Source: an uncultured Armatimonadota bacterium (lineage in GTDB: Bacteria > Armatimonadota > Fimbriimonadia > Fimbriimonadales > Fimbriimonadaceae). Taken from it: a stretch of DNA of 53,587 bases. Below, piece after piece: positions 1,114 through 36,831 of this stretch. The position numbers were made by a program, and so were the translations under genes. Under the pieces are notes generated by a model. It had not been told where the DNA came from, searched no databases, and saw nothing but the letters and a program-made list of their open reading frames with translations. The stretch is taken from NCBI GenBank assembly GCA_903833215.1, contig CAILEM010000102.1, positions 1-53,587 on the forward strand. The letters run 5' to 3'. Numbering within the stretch: the first letter of the stretch is position 1; the number at the start of each line of letters is the position of its first letter.

Positions 1114-2804
1114 ATCAACACGCGAGGTTGAACGTACGCCATATCCTGCACCAGGTTAGCCTCGTCGCCGTAGAACCGGTCCGCTTCATAGTCCTTGTCG
1201 AGTGCAGCCTGAAACTCGGTGTACTGCGTCGCCAAAGCTTTTCCAGTGTCAGAAATATCTGTACGGCCCTTCAATCGAATAGGGTCGGCATACTCCAGAC
1301 TCGTGTAGGTGACGATGTCCGGCTTGAGGTCAGTGACAAGACGCTTGTCGAACTGGGTCGGGTTTCCTTCCGGTGTCATGAAGTACGTCTCTTTGGGTGC
1401 GGTTGCCGCCTCCATCGCCGCCACACGCTTCTTGGGTGTCATCGAGCGGCGGGCGATCGTGCTATCTGGGAACAACGGAGGAGACCAGAACCACGGGTCT
1501 TCGGGAAGGCCAACAACCAATCCAGGTTTCGACTTCGCTTGGTCTTTCAAGTAGCGAGCGGCGGAATCGCGCGGATCCTCCGCCGTCATGTATTGCGTAA
1601 ACCGAACGGTTCCGATGAGCCCCCCGTAATCGATACCACCGACGGCGAGAATCCCAGCACCGACGACAAATCGGCCAAGCTGCTTCTGCTCTTGGCCTTT
1701 CGCAATAGCGTATCCAAACCCGATCGCGAGGCCGGTGTAGAGCGGGAAGGTGTACCGCATGAACTTCACTTCCGCCCGTCCGATGAGAACGTAGTACGGC
1801 AGCATAAACGCCAACAAGGCGATGGCCCAAACCTTCTTCTGATACGCAAAGTAGGCTAGCGTGATGAATCCGGTGACGGTTGCGATCGTCCCAAGCCCCT
1901 GCAGCATGTTCCCCAAATGGTAAATAAAGCCGTTAGCGGTCCCCTCAAATACCAGCCCATGCCCGGTTGACGTGTGCAGCATCTCGTACTTGAAGTCGCG
2001 CATGAACGCGGAGTTGTCGAGAAGAATGCCGGGGCAAGACAAGATAAACGCGCCAAGCGTCGCCCCGAGGCTGATGAGCGACTCTTTCACCGCCGTTTCT
2101 TTGCGGGTCGCAAAGAGTACGACGATCAGCGTGACCAACGCGAGAATGCCGGTGTACTTCGTGCCTGCGCTCAGGCCGGCAAACACGCCAGAGAGAATCA
2201 CCCACTTGAGGATACTTTTCGCTGCTGGAGGCTCTTCACCGTCTTTGGGCAGCAACTTGAGCGCGAAGAGGGTGCTTGCCGTGAGCAGGAACACCGCCAT
2301 CACGTCGACGGTTTGGAACCGAGAATGCACGACATGGGCAGGCGCCACCGCAAGTATCGCTGCCCCACTACACGCCCCAAGCAGGTTGCTTAGCCTTAGC
2401 AGGATGAGAAATGCAAGGAGGACGGTGCCTGCCCCTGCGAGTGCACTAATGATCCGGCCCGCCATGTTGCACCGCGCGATGTACGACCACGTGGCATCCT
2501 GGTTCTTGGGATCAGGCCCGCCCGTGTACGCCGCCGTCATATCGCTTGCGATACGCAACGTGGTCAAGTAAAAAGTGCCGTAGTTGTAGAAGCCCGGCGT
2601 GAACTTGAATTGGGCTGGCTCAATCGCTTGGCTGAACCGAAAGATGTCCTCTTCGTCAGGGTGATAGCTCTGGTTATGTAGGTCGTTCTTCAACCCCCAA
2701 CTGATTCCAACGAGACGAATCGCGAGAGCGATCACGAAAACGGCCAGTTGCAAAAGCAGGCGCAACCGTTCCGGGGACAAAAGACGCTGAGAGGGCTCCG
2801 GCAC
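1089..2804 (-). CDS. PMT/ArnT-like (GT39-type) membrane glycosyltransferase
   Basis: A 571-residue integral membrane protein with about ten hydrophobic segments. Its N-terminal pattern is that of the dolichyl-phosphate-mannose protein mannosyltransferase superfamily: TM1 at about residues 14-32, then an acidic loop, SYHPDEED at about 46-53, where the family keeps its catalytic Asp/Glu. The C-terminal third is a soluble periplasmic-type domain. Such enzymes transfer sugars from polyprenyl-phosphate donors to proteins or lipids at the membrane; the acceptor here cannot be told. The GTG start has no Shine-Dalgarno; a TANNNT-type hexamer (TATCCT, 2811-2816) sits 6 nt upstream. It follows the 337-residue exported protein by 19 bases and overlaps xerD. 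Confidence 0.75.
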   Translation of the reverse strand: MPEPSQRLLSPERLRLLLQLAVFVIALAIRLVGISWGLKNDLHNQSYHPDEEDIFRFSQAIEPAQFKFTPGFYNYGTFYLTTLRIASDMTAAYTGGPDPKNQDATWSYIARCNMAGRIISALAGAGTVLLAFLILLRLSNLLGACSGAAILAVAPAHVVHSRFQTVDVMAVFLLTASTLFALKLLPKDGEEPPAAKSILKWVILSGVFAGLSAGTKYTGILALVTLIVVLFATRKETAVKESLISLGATLGAFILSCPGILLDNSAFMRDFKYEMLHTSTGHGLVFEGTANGFIYHLGNMLQGLGTIATVTGFITLAYFAYQKKVWAIALLAFMLPYYVLIGRAEVKFMRYTFPLYTGLAIGFGYAIAKGQEQKQLGRFVVGAGILAVGGIDYGGLIGTVRFTQYMTAEDPRDSAARYLKDQAKSKPGLVVGLPEDPWFWSPPLFPDSTIARRSMTPKKRVAAMEAATAPKETYFMTPEGNPTQFDKRLVTDLKPDIVTYTSLEYADPIRLKGRTDISDTGKALATQYTEFQAALDKDYEADRFYGDEANLVQDMAYVQPRVLIWKRKATH

Positions 2805-3901: not shown

Positions 3902-5020
3902 TTACCGAAGCACCTGCTTAGCTATCACAAGGCGCTGAATTTCCGAACATCCTTCACCAATCTCCGTCAGTTTTGCGTCTCGCCACAGTTTTTCAACCAA
4001 GAATTCCTGAGTCATTCCACGGCCACCGTGAATTTGAATGGCTCGATTTGTGACCCTATTAGCGGTTTCGCTCGCGTAGAGCTTGGCGAATGAGGACTCC
4101 TTGATCGCGGGAAAGCCCATGTCGTACAGCTTTGCTCCGTTCGAGAGCAGCAAGTTGGCGGCCTCAATCTCCACCGCGCTATCCGCAATCATGTTTTGGA
4201 CCGACTGCATATCGGCGAGCCGACGATTGAACTGCTCACGTTGCTTTGCATAGTCAAGTGTGAGTTCAAACGCTTTCTCAGCGATACCAACCGCCATCCC
4301 AGCGATACCGAGGCGACCACGATAGAGGAGCCCAATCGCCTCCTCAAATTTGCATGGCGTGTGCCAAGCAACCGCGTTCTTCAGTCGAAACTGCACGGTG
4401 TTAGAAGCGCTTACACCAACCGTGTTAATTCTCTTTTCGATGGTGAAGCCCTCTTGATTGGTTTCAAGGAAGAACGCCGTCAATTCTGTGTCGGAGACTC
4501 GGGCTACGATCACGATCAAATCCGCTTTTCCACCGTTCGTGATGAACATCTTTTGCCCATTCAGGTGGTAGTAGCCAGGTCGTCCCTCAATTGGAGTGGC
4601 CATCGTCTTCACGCGACGCGCATCGGAACCAGCATCCGGCTCGGTAAGACCCCAGGCCATCTTGATTTCTCCCTTGATAACGCCAGGCAAGTACTTTGCA
4701 CACTGCTCTGGCGTCGCAAAGTGGTCGAAATGGGCGAGACACAGGGCGTTGATCGCGGACAAGTTCATTGCTAGCGCCGGATCCCCTTTCGCGACCTCTT
4801 TGATGACTTGGCAGTATGCGTTGCACGAGGCACCGAGGCCCCCATTTTCCTTCGAAAGGCATATCGAAAGAAGTCCCAACTCGCCAAGTCGGGGCCAGAT
4901 TTCATCGGGAAACGCGGCATTGCGTTCCCACTCTCGGGTATTCGGAAGCACTTCCTCGGATACAAACTTACGAACGGTATTGAGGAATTGCGCTTCGTCT
5001 GGATGAATTTCTAAAAACAT
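3902..5020 (-). CDS. Acyl-CoA dehydrogenase
   Basis: An FAD-dependent acyl-CoA dehydrogenase (372 residues, normal length) that makes the trans-2 double bond of an acyl-CoA and passes electrons to ETF. The three-part family order is visible: N-terminal helical domain, middle beta domain with the WGLTEPDAGSDA and KMFITNGG signatures (about residues 137-180), and C-terminal helical domain ending IQIHGGRGMTQEF...EIGEGCSEIQR. The Glu in GEGCSEIQ is at the usual catalytic-base position. Start ATG at 5020 follows a GAGAGG Shine-Dalgarno. It is divergent from the cobalamin-domain regulator at 5174. The ETF and FadN-like genes at 7.9-11.7 kb would take its electrons and product. Chain-length specificity cannot be read. 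Confidence 0.93.
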   Translation of the reverse strand: MFLEIHPDEAQFLNTVRKFVSEEVLPNTREWERNAAFPDEIWPRLGELGLLSICLSKENGGLGASCNAYCQVIKEVAKGDPALAMNLSAINALCLAHFDHFATPEQCAKYLPGVIKGEIKMAWGLTEPDAGSDARRVKTMATPIEGRPGYYHLNGQKMFITNGGKADLIVIVARVSDTELTAFFLETNQEGFTIEKRINTVGVSASNTVQFRLKNAVAWHTPCKFEEAIGLLYRGRLGIAGMAVGIAEKAFELTLDYAKQREQFNRRLADMQSVQNMIADSAVEIEAANLLLSNGAKLYDMGFPAIKESSFAKLYASETANRVTNRAIQIHGGRGMTQEFLVEKLWRDAKLTEIGEGCSEIQRLVIAKQVLR

Positions 5021-5153: not shown

Positions 5154-5159
5154 TATTAT
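5154..5159 (+). promoter_or_regulatory. Possible -10 box of the cobalamin-domain regulator
   Basis: TATTAT lies 14 nt before the ATG at 5174. No -35 consensus is seen 17 nt upstream, and no Shine-Dalgarno lies between the box and the start, so the transcript would have a very short leader. The 153-bp divergent region must also hold the acyl-CoA dehydrogenase promoter and is the natural place for the regulator's operator. Confidence 0.3.
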
Positions 5160-5173
5160 ATTTGGGCTGACTG

Positions 5174-6112
5174 ATGATACATGTCTACGAAGAATTAGGT
5201 GACACGTCGCGTCGGCGATTGCTTGGAGAACTATGCACGGGACCCAAGACCGTAACGGATTTGGTCTCCGCCACGTGCATGAAGCAGCCTAACGTTTCAA
5301 CCCATCTTGCTCGCATGAAGGTCAAGGGGATTGTTCGCGCTGAAAAGGTTGGGCGACAGGTGTTCTATTCCCTAATGTCCGCCGAGGTAGAGGCGATTGT
5401 CAAGAGCGCCCTCACCAAACGAGATATGCATGTCACATGCTGCCTCAAGGAAGCCTCTGCCAATTATGCGACCGCCGCAACCAACGGAGACGAATCCAGT
5501 TGCGCAGAAATTGTCGACCTCGCCATTCGGGCGAAAATGCCTCTCCTAGATATCTATCAGGAGCTCCTTGGCCCCGCGATGATCTTGGTTGGAGCGTGGT
5601 ACCGAGCAGAAAAGATCGGGACGGCTCAGGAGCACATGGCAAGTGCCATTACGGAACGCATGATGGCGCGGGTCATGCAGAGCGTGATGCCGGCAAAGAA
5701 TGTAGAGCGAACAGCTCTATTAGGTTGCGGCCCCAATTCATGGCATGTCATCGGTCTGCGGATGCTCGGCGACTACCTCACTGTTTCGGGATGGCGCACC
5801 CTTTTCTTGGGTGCTAATGTTCCCCACAATTGTTTCTTGAAGGCAGTCGATCAGAATCAGCCAGATTTAGTTCTGGTAAGTTGTGTCGCCCAAGATGGCT
5901 TTGACGGCGGCTTATCGCTGATTCGGGAGTTGAGTGGGCGTCGCAGCAGCACCTATCGCTTCACTATCGGCGTTGGTGGCCCGTGCGTGTGTATGAACCG
6001 CGAAGCTTTTCTTGAGGCCGGCGCAGATTTCACCTGTTCCAGCCTGAAACTGTTCGCCGAAGAGTATCTCCCAAGCATCGAGCGAACCGGCAAAGTTCCT
6101 GCCGTCGCCTAA
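5174..6112 (+). CDS. ArsR-type HTH regulator fused to a cobalamin-binding domain
   Basis: A 312-residue regulator with an unusual fusion. Residues 1-75 form an ArsR-like winged helix (recognition helix near KQPNVSTHLARM, wing near VGRQVFYSL). Residues 105-175 form the helical cap found in methionine synthase and CarH. Residues 180-300 are the B12-binding Rossmann domain, with an SWHVIG block in place of DxHxxG; H191 would be the lower axial ligand. The CarH cap signature W-x9-EH is shifted: W142 is ten residues from E153-H154, and Y143 sits at the nine-residue position. The His that follows Trp in CarH is absent. Known CarH/LitR proteins use a MerR HTH, so this is a different architecture. 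It probably senses adenosylcobalamin and perhaps light, controlling itself or the divergent acyl-CoA dehydrogenase; that role is inference. Confidence 0.8.
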   Translation: MIHVYEELGDTSRRRLLGELCTGPKTVTDLVSATCMKQPNVSTHLARMKVKGIVRAEKVGRQVFYSLMSAEVEAIVKSALTKRDMHVTCCLKEASANYATAATNGDESSCAEIVDLAIRAKMPLLDIYQELLGPAMILVGAWYRAEKIGTAQEHMASAITERMMARVMQSVMPAKNVERTALLGCGPNSWHVIGLRMLGDYLTVSGWRTLFLGANVPHNCFLKAVDQNQPDLVLVSCVAQDGFDGGLSLIRELSGRRSSTYRFTIGVGGPCVCMNREAFLEAGADFTCSSLKLFAEEYLPSIERTGKVPAVA

Positions 6113-32776: not shown

Positions 32777-34902
<2,126 letters not shown>

Positions 34903-34906
<4 letters not shown>

Positions 34907-36831
34907 TTCGCCTCCAGTGAATACGGCTGATCCAAGGGGAGCTCAGGGATGCCGAACTTCTCATGGAACTGCTGTAGTGTTTCGAGTTGATCGAGTCGAA
35001 TATGGATGAAGTCGACAACACCGGCGGCCTTCAAATCATCGATAACGTCGACAGGATTTCCGGCAACGATGACCGGGATATCTGTCTTAAGGGCTTGGGC
35101 AAACTCAAGGTACGCGGGGTCTTCGCTACAAAGCACCACCGTCGCGACTGGCTCCGCTTTTAGCAATTCTGCCAATTCGTCGGCATTCGTCACGACGGCT
35201 TCTCGCATGTCGTAACCGCCCGCACCCAAAAAGCCTTGGACGAACATGCTTCGTGCCCGTCGCATCTTCCGATCACCAAACTCAGCCAGCAGAATCGTAG
35301 GCGATTTGCCGCCCGTGGTCACAAATCGCTCAACCCTTAACCGGAGGTGCTCAAAGGGCCAGCTTGGCCGGAACGGGTCCAGCGCTGTGCTCGGAACCGG
35401 TTGGTCGATTAGGAAATCGTCCAACTCACCGACTGCCAGCTTGTCGAGCCCAATCGAAGGGATCAAAACCTGACGTGCAGAGGGCCGATTCTTCACGTCG
35501 CCTAGGCGATGCTCTTTTGGATTTGGGTAGACCGTGGTTCCCACAATTGTCCGCTTCCGTGAGCCAACTTGCTTAGACCGCTTCGCCTGGACCTTTCGAA
35601 TGAGGTCACCCACGAATCCGCTCTCCCAACTGGTAACGAAGCCACCTTGGGACTCAATCTGTTTGAACAATGCCCATGCCGTCTCGGCGTATTCATGGGT
35701 CAATTGCTCAACTGCATAACTACCGCCCAGAGGATCGACAACTTTGCCGACATAGGCTTCTTCAAGAAGCAGTGCTTCGGTGTTTCGGGTTAAGTGCTCG
35801 CTAAATTCATCCGGTGCGCCATAGCCTTGGTCGTATGCAGCGACGGATACGGAATCAACCCCACCGATCGTGGATGCCATGGCTTCAATCGTCGCTCGCA
35901 GCAAGTTGTTGAACGGATCGTACAACGTCTTGTTGGTGCTGGTCGTGATCGCATGCAGCTTCGGCCAAACCCCGTGAATTCCGAAGGCATCGAGGACGTT
36001 CTGAATGAGGAGCTTGATGGCCCTGAGCTTTGCGATCTCAAGGAAATAGTTGGTTCCCACTCCAAGTCGAAATTCCGCCCTTCGGACGAAGTCTTCAAGC
36101 TGAGTCCTGTCACAGCGCTCACTGGCAACTGTGAGATATTCGGTGAAGAGCCCGAGCGAGAATGCCAGCTCTTGGGCAAGGCTTGCCCCTGCCTTCTCAA
36201 TAATCGAACCACGGATCGTAACGGTATTGAACTGGGGGACGGCACCGAGAAGGTCCATCGTGGCGTTGAACTCACCTTTCCAATCGGAAAGGTCGCCTGA
36301 GGTCCAACCGGCACAGCGGTCCATGATCGGGTCGAACTCGACAGAGCCTTGAAGTGAAGCAGAATCCATTCCGCGCCGCTTGGCTTCGTTCGTGATCAAC
36401 CCGATCATGGGTCGCGTAAAGGGCCCGGCCAACCAGTGGATAGGTACGGAGTCAATCCAAATTCCTTCGGTGAAAGCGGCCATATCGGCAGCATTCTGGA
36501 TCGGAACACCCATGGGGTAGGTCAAGACCGATAGCTCGAACGCACCACGTTCCAAGCTTCGCATGGCGTGCCGATTGGCAGCACCAACATTCAGTTCCCG
36601 AATCTCCTCGCGGAAGGCGGGGCGCATGGCTGTGCGAACATGCCCGCGAACGACGCTTTCTGTTGTATTGGGGAGATTCTCAGATCGATAGAACGGACGG
36701 ATCTTAATCCCGTCCAAAGTTTCTGTTACCAGACGTTTGTCGAAATCCGCGCCTTTGAGGTCTTTCTGAACAACTTCGAGCCACTTGTCTGTGGATGTGG
36801 CTTCGAACTCTTCAAACAATCGCTCGCTCAT
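34903..36831 (-). CDS. mutA: Methylmalonyl-CoA mutase small subunit
   Basis: The non-catalytic partner subunit, 642 residues. The barrel part is recognisable ([32 protein letters not shown]) but the C-terminal domain lacks the DxHxxG cobalamin motif, as in the Propionibacterium small subunit. It supports dimer stability. It overlaps the epimerase gene by 4 nt at its start and mutB by 4 nt at its end. Confidence 0.95.

Follow-up and report, generated by a model that had tools for sequence, protein, structure and literature searches.

The window, by which we mean the whole stretch of 53,587 nucleotides that was analysed, carries at 5174–6112 (+) a gene for a 312-residue regulator joining an ArsR-type winged helix to a B12 photoreceptor-type sensor, as judged from the open reading frame, its translation, Pfam and NCBIfam matches and a family of 52 members. 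We think it likely that this protein is an ArsR repressor that depends on adenosylcobalamin (AdoCbl), is released by light and drives a circuit with an ECF sigma factor, in the manner of LitR and LitS in Streptomyces. The wider picture, in which Armatimonadota-specific ArsR-type B12 light receptors of a single fusion origin keep an ECF sigma stress circuit closed in darkness and have a fasciclin output in common with MerR-type CarH, is one that we favour slightly.

Results

An ArsR-type winged helix in front of a B12 sensor

The open reading frame is intact and opens with ATG. The winged helix-turn-helix (HTH) at residues 4–77 (5183–5404 (+)) is matched by the NCBIfam model HTH_metalloreg with 61.8 bits against a cut-off of 55, and residues 11–55 by the Pfam model HTH_5/ArsR (PF01022) with 36.2 bits (cut-off 22). 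No MerR-type HTH was matched in the protein by Pfam or NCBIfam profiles, the ArsR models scoring over their cut-offs instead, and the replacement of a MerR HTH by an ArsR-type winged helix, as put forward in the preliminary description, is thereby borne out. This assignment comes from profile matches rather than a fold search, the query of the structure search being residues 88–312. Behind the winged helix lie a four-helix cap module (B12-binding_2, PF02607; residues 98–166, 5465–5671 (+); 51.1 bits) and a Rossmann B12-binding domain (PF02310; residues 181–286, 5714–6031 (+); 53.6 bits), both above the Pfam cut-off, the latter also with a structural match to B12 photoreceptors. The NCBIfam equivalog model for CarH scores 25.3 bits against a cut-off of 400. 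Pfam reveals no further domain, such as a biliverdin-binding globin, in the protein, which ends at residue 312.

Structure prediction, one of the checks that the preliminary description had suggested, gave an AlphaFold2 model with a mean pLDDT of 90.2 and values above 90 over most of the four-helix cap module; the C-terminal helix of the ArsR domain spans residues 70–80. Its B12 part most resembles light-responsive domains, with VIA-align Z scores of 26.0 and 25.6 for the photocobilin structures 8j2x and 8j2w and 24.8 for CtMerR (8jbt), followed by MetH (1bmt, 22.7) and TtCarH (~19). By sequence and by Foldseek, the closest solved structure is CtMerR. The Z score to TtCarH, together with the two Pfam matches, agrees with the earlier reading of a CarH-like B12 module. 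This closeness to light-responsive B12 domains in the model reflects a common fold and does not show function.

Cap and cobalamin-contact residues

W142, Y143, R144, E153, H154 and H191 were all verified by position in the window protein. The preliminary description had taken the cap signature W-x9-EH to be off by one; its residue positions (W142, Y143, E153-H154) stand, while the shift does not. The alignment with photocobilin 8j2w/8j2x runs from the W position to EH without gaps and sets the capping Trp of 8j2w/8j2x on Y143, not W142, so that the cap is better described as a Trp-to-Tyr change with an extra preceding Trp. From the same alignment and the family columns, W142-Y143-R144 (5597–5605 (+)) has Y143 at the place of the CarH capping residue Trp131 and R144 at that of CarH His132. 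Across the family, position 143 is Tyr in 35 members, Trp in 12, Phe in two and another residue in three (aromatic in 49/52), and position 144 is His in 0/52, in agreement with the earlier remark that the His next to Trp is missing. The EH motif E153-H154 (5630–5635 (+)), which contacts the adenosyl group in CarH-type proteins and has a described role in CtMerR (PMC11796333) and SasPcob (PMC10979010), is kept in 51/52 members.

The lower axial ligand H191, correctly recognised before, is present in 50/52 members. It belongs to S189-W190-H191 (5738–5746 (+)), where the family columns place Ser at the CarH-type Glu/Asp. Position 189 is Asn in 37 members, Ser in 11, Glu in three and Gly in one; in 48/52 members, Asn or Ser thus stands in for the acidic residue of the E/D-x-H lower-ligand motif, a point absent from the preliminary description. 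Of the SignatureFinder signature (GxxW, EH, GxxH, GxxxP), the window protein has EH and G213-x3-P217, and departs from GxxW (G140-A-W-Y) and GxxH (N188-S-W-H). The GxxH-type Gly occurs in 35/52 members and the Trp in 12/52, and a subset, for example L045, fits the full signature.

The lack of a His132 equivalent is not new, the experimentally light-responsive CtMerR having Arg at that position, SasPcob Gln and AbDPcob Tyr (PMC11796333). The altered cap is therefore no sufficient reason to postulate a different light response, as the preliminary description had suggested. Given Tyr for Trp and the changed E/D-x-H, the AdoCbl pocket could nevertheless behave differently. From the residues retained, the window protein is likely to bind AdoCbl, and it would be expected to sense light.

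A family within Armatimonadota

The domain search that had been proposed for counting other members yielded, after duplicates were taken out, an alignment of 52 distinct full-length proteins, all from Armatimonadota and far beyond chance, with strong profile matches in 60 of the 291 Armatimonadota genomes searched. The family is common across this little-studied phylum. A pattern scan of GTDB contigs returned named Fimbriimonadaceae, Chthonomonadaceae and related metagenome-assembled genomes (MAGs), its full-length matches falling only in Armatimonadota or in unnamed MAGs of that kind. The recognition helix, Q38-P39-N40-x-S42-x-H44, is invariant in 52/52 members. In a B12-domain tree, 50/52 members form one clade (UFBoot 100, SH-aLRT 97), outside which the phylum's MerR CarH-like proteins fall; L141 and L142 are long branches outside the clade, of unsettled placement. 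No ArsR–B12 fusion was found in 151 Chloroflexota, 149 Acidobacteriota and 198 Actinomycetota genomes, where matches at the E-value used cover the B12 part only and rare or diverged fusions could escape.

One member (L021/L066, genome G011) has a destroyed B12 pocket, with no cap aromatic, EH lost and Cys in place of the lower His; it is the sole EH exception and one of the two H191 exceptions among the 52. G011 is also without the neighbouring acyl-CoA dehydrogenase orthologue, and its member offers a natural negative control.

The searches also brought up B12 domains in other settings. In the same order of Armatimonadota, L024:1099–2007 (−) of genome G034 encodes a CarH-like B12 domain followed by a Cro/XRE-type HTH at the C terminus, so that the same sensor is joined to yet another class of DNA-binding domain. 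In the actinobacterial genome G717 (L129), a 355-aa frame has its B12 domain after an apparent excisionase-type HTH (HEVAELLGVHYMTAYRYVRHGQL). The window's own genome encodes on contig C54 (L002) a B12 domain protein in which the Trp cap is exact and EH is present; no DNA-binding part is recognised in it, and a PAS-like gene follows.

A predicted palindromic operator at an ECF sigma-factor gene

The predicted operator, learned from regulator promoters alone, is the 24-bp palindrome ATATATCA-N8-TGATATAT. In 29 dehydrogenase/regulator intergenic regions this de novo motif reached a log-likelihood of 104.4, whereas none of 12 dinucleotide shuffles exceeded 51.1, and it lies ~40 bp 5' of the regulator start; a palindromic motif of width 20 gave nothing notable above shuffles in the same search. 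A pattern search in 11 genomes located this palindrome in the interval that separates an ECF sigma-factor gene from a gene for a 121-aa protein, the site at the ECF promoter being TTATATCAGTGAAGACTGATATAA. The strong palindrome of the window's genome has this position too, on another contig (G000:C77:13700–13723). The conserved 121-aa protein (L187:1653–2015 (+) on contig C77) has no Pfam match and looks receiver-like by eye; its gene is divergent from the ECF gene across the operator in several genomes.

An orthologue of the ECF gene is present in 66/85 genomes of the bacterial family. We scanned 65 ECF upstream regions with a matrix trained on regulator promoters only, taking the 95th percentile of shuffles as threshold. 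A site above threshold was found in 42/43 genomes with the regulator versus 2/22 without it (Fisher p 1.6e-13). The two genomes with a site and no regulator, G149 and G006, are assemblies 89% and 77% complete whose congeners carry both. The species are related, yet the contrast in site and regulator recurs inside the genera g1, g22, g31, g45 and g47. In the reverse test, 29/52 of the regulators' promoters score p <= 0.05 with the ECF-site matrix, their sites clustered near −40; this test is weaker for part of the family, the window included. Here a weak operator-like palindrome, TTATATTTGGGCTGACTGATGATA, spans the start codon (5156–5179; 7.8 bits, shuffle p ~0.05), and the window gene's own autoregulatory site appears to be degraded or absent. 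The palindrome of most ECF promoters shares bases with a putative −10 box, a placement that suits repression. At the sequence level, DNA binding and the regulon of the ArsR–B12 family are well supported, and the regulator most likely controls the ECF sigma-factor gene.

Fasciclin genes and other predicted targets

Further targets were sought by pattern only, not by a genome-wide matrix scan, and assigned by the gene adjoining the site. In 44 regulator-bearing genomes the near-exact operator pattern occurs in 37 places and the reversed one in two. Of the 37, 17 lie at the ECF gene, seven at genes for fasciclin-domain secreted proteins and two at the regulator's own promoter. In G138 the fasciclin target is the gene immediately 3' of the regulator itself. 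Among the genes hit in single cases, which may be chance occurrences, are two in G138, for an amine oxidase and for an oxidoreductase of the Old Yellow Enzyme type, and one in G122 for a sigma factor of the primary type. Fasciclin genes also adjoin MerR CarH-like regulators in four Armatimonadota genomes, the window's own included, divergently in L003, L031 and L027 and ~0.6 kb apart in L025. The pair in the window's genome lies on contig C87 (L003), the fasciclin gene at 454–966 (−) and the divergent regulator gene at 1114–2052 (+). If the canonical CarH-like proteins of these genomes act in light, as would be expected of them, a regulon that joins an ECF sigma factor to fasciclin genes resembles what B12 light receptors control.

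The window also holds two methylmalonyl-CoA mutase subunit-type genes (PF01642) at 33299–36720 (−), and such a gene occurs in 21/85 family genomes. A propionyl/methylmalonyl link for the regulator was considered and dropped, the mutase being absent in 28/44 genomes with the regulator.

Discussion

Alternative readings of the circuit

The gene upstream of the regulator, a divergent acyl-CoA dehydrogenase gene at 3902–5020 (−) recognised by Pfam, is a conserved neighbour and suggests a specific local regulator of this gene and of beta-oxidation genes, which lie downstream at several regulator loci. It is upstream and divergent in 33/52 loci, no more than ~300 bp away in 31 of these, and keeps this position even where downstream synteny is lost. 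Yet the dehydrogenase occurs in 77 of the 85 genomes of the bacterial family, whether or not the regulator is there; its promoters carry no convincing operator in the seven regulator-bearing genomes where the two genes are unlinked (best p 0.03, with a negative score); and members outside Fimbriimonadaceae have other neighbours. Because the gene is near-universal regardless of the regulator and has no operator when unlinked, we read it as a neighbour rather than the main target, despite its conserved position; it is probably a bystander and not a regulon member, and we hold strictly local control to be quite improbable. An ordinary metal-sensing ArsR repressor with a passenger B12 domain would agree with an ArsR fold above the family cut-off, but it is very hard to reconcile with the rest: no ELCxCDL-type site was seen in the ArsR domain of the window protein, both Cys of that domain are unconserved in an alignment of 18 orthologues, and B12 ligand residues are retained in 50–51 of the 52 members.

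The preliminary description's alternative of a redox or B12-level sensor is made less likely by a regulon that resembles that of B12 light receptors and has no consistent B12 gene. The main rival to a light-released repressor is a sensor of AdoCbl levels in the dark, which would bind the palindrome only with (or only without) AdoCbl and report B12 status, light being physiologically irrelevant. The Trp-to-Tyr cap and the Asn or Ser in the lower-ligand motif would fit it, as would L065, which is divergent from nrdR and an apparent B12-dependent ribonucleotide reductase gene (nrdJ), the sole such case seen. The mutase is weakly associated with the regulator (16/44 versus 5/41 genomes, p 0.012, uncorrected for phylogeny), but the 28 regulator-bearing genomes without it speak against this reading. 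So do the recurrent operator targets of the 44-genome pattern search, among which there is no cobalamin gene, and the window, within which no riboswitch was found. The operator sites are instead at an ECF sigma-factor gene and at fasciclin genes, these last being common to CarH-like regulators, and we consider such a sensor unlikely. The direction of control bears on another reading, a light- or oxygen-responsive activator, in which the AdoCbl-bound or photolysed protein would recruit RNA polymerase at the ECF promoter. Operator-to-start-codon distances vary, as it would allow, and LitR has been described as promoting litS transcription (PMC12705666). Against it, the palindrome at most ECF promoters overlaps the putative −10, where repressors classically act. 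Members of the ArsR family, moreover, are mostly repressors, and activation seems improbable to us.

A proposed light-released repressor

For the light-released repressor, we infer AdoCbl binding, release by light, repression over activation and the role of the ECF sigma factor from the features described above. We postulate that this ArsR-fold repressor, with a CarH/photocobilin-type AdoCbl sensor, would be AdoCbl-bound in the dark. Light would cleave the Co–C bond and adenosine would depart; with no His to cap the cobalt, the cobalamin would become water- or hydroxide-ligated. The cap and dimer interface would then rearrange, the repressor would leave the DNA, and the ECF sigma factor would switch on a photo-oxidative stress response. 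An aquo/hydroxo light state is predicted from the missing His, and a water/hydroxide-ligated cobalamin is the end state of SasPcob photolysis (PMC10979010). CtMerR is green-light responsive and goes from tetramer to monomer (PMC11796333). TtCarH H132A, on the other hand, mostly remains a tetramer under light, mostly with no dissociation (PMC10442372); loss of the His can thus impair release, which is the least certain step of the scheme. The circuit has a precedent in Streptomyces, where LitR controls the LitS sigma factor (PMC12705666), and the linkage of a B12-domain regulator with a sigma-factor gene is found here as well, on sequence grounds only.

Comparison with known systems

Among known proteins, CtMerR of Chloracidobacterium thermophilum (8JBS/8JBT) has the same four-helix and Rossmann B12 domains, EH, the lower His and Arg at the His132 position, but differs from the window protein in its MerR-type DNA-binding domain and in Trp as the capping residue. 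CarH and LitR of Thermus, Myxococcus and Streptomyces are likewise one-component DNA-binding regulators with this sensor fold, but have a MerR HTH, the Trp131 and His132 cap and E/D-x-H; the operator of the window family, in contrast to theirs, is an ArsR-like palindrome. LitR controls LitS (PMC12705666); the sigma factor apparently under control of the ArsR–B12 family is an ECF one. The photocobilins SasPcob and AbPcob (8J2W/8J2X/8J2Y) give the top structural Z (26.0), lack a His cap and have an aquo/hydroxo light state; their biliverdin-binding globin domain is absent from the window protein, and some have a diguanylate cyclase output. With ArsR/SmtB repressors the window protein has in common the winged helix, the recognition helix and a C-terminal dimerisation-type helix, and its family an AT-rich inverted-repeat operator overlapping the promoter. 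It differs from them in having no conserved metal site and in the 210-residue B12 sensor fused behind.

We found no description of the ArsR–B12 architecture in the literature searched, a negative that is weak evidence because subscription journals lay outside the search. Fusions of light-responsive domains to HTH domains are reported in general terms by SignatureFinder (PMC11796333), whose network may contain the ArsR–B12 family unnamed. The kind of sensor and the circuit logic were already known; as far as tested, what is new is the class of DNA-binding domain, the operator and a regulon specific to the phylum.

Significance

The DNA-binding B12 photoreceptor regulators named in the literature that we examined are all MerR-type. 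A natural ArsR version would mean that a second DNA-binding fold, unrelated to the first, can be driven by the B12 sensor, which would be useful for optogenetics, and a cap without Trp or His is maintained across the whole family. The system offers an operator, a likely ECF target and natural controls, namely the genomes that are jointly without regulator and site and the member with the destroyed pocket. It makes a light-stress circuit testable in Armatimonadota, a phylum on whose light biology we found no studies. If the proposed reading is true, two unrelated DNA-binding folds would use the same light chemistry to control the same kind of genes.
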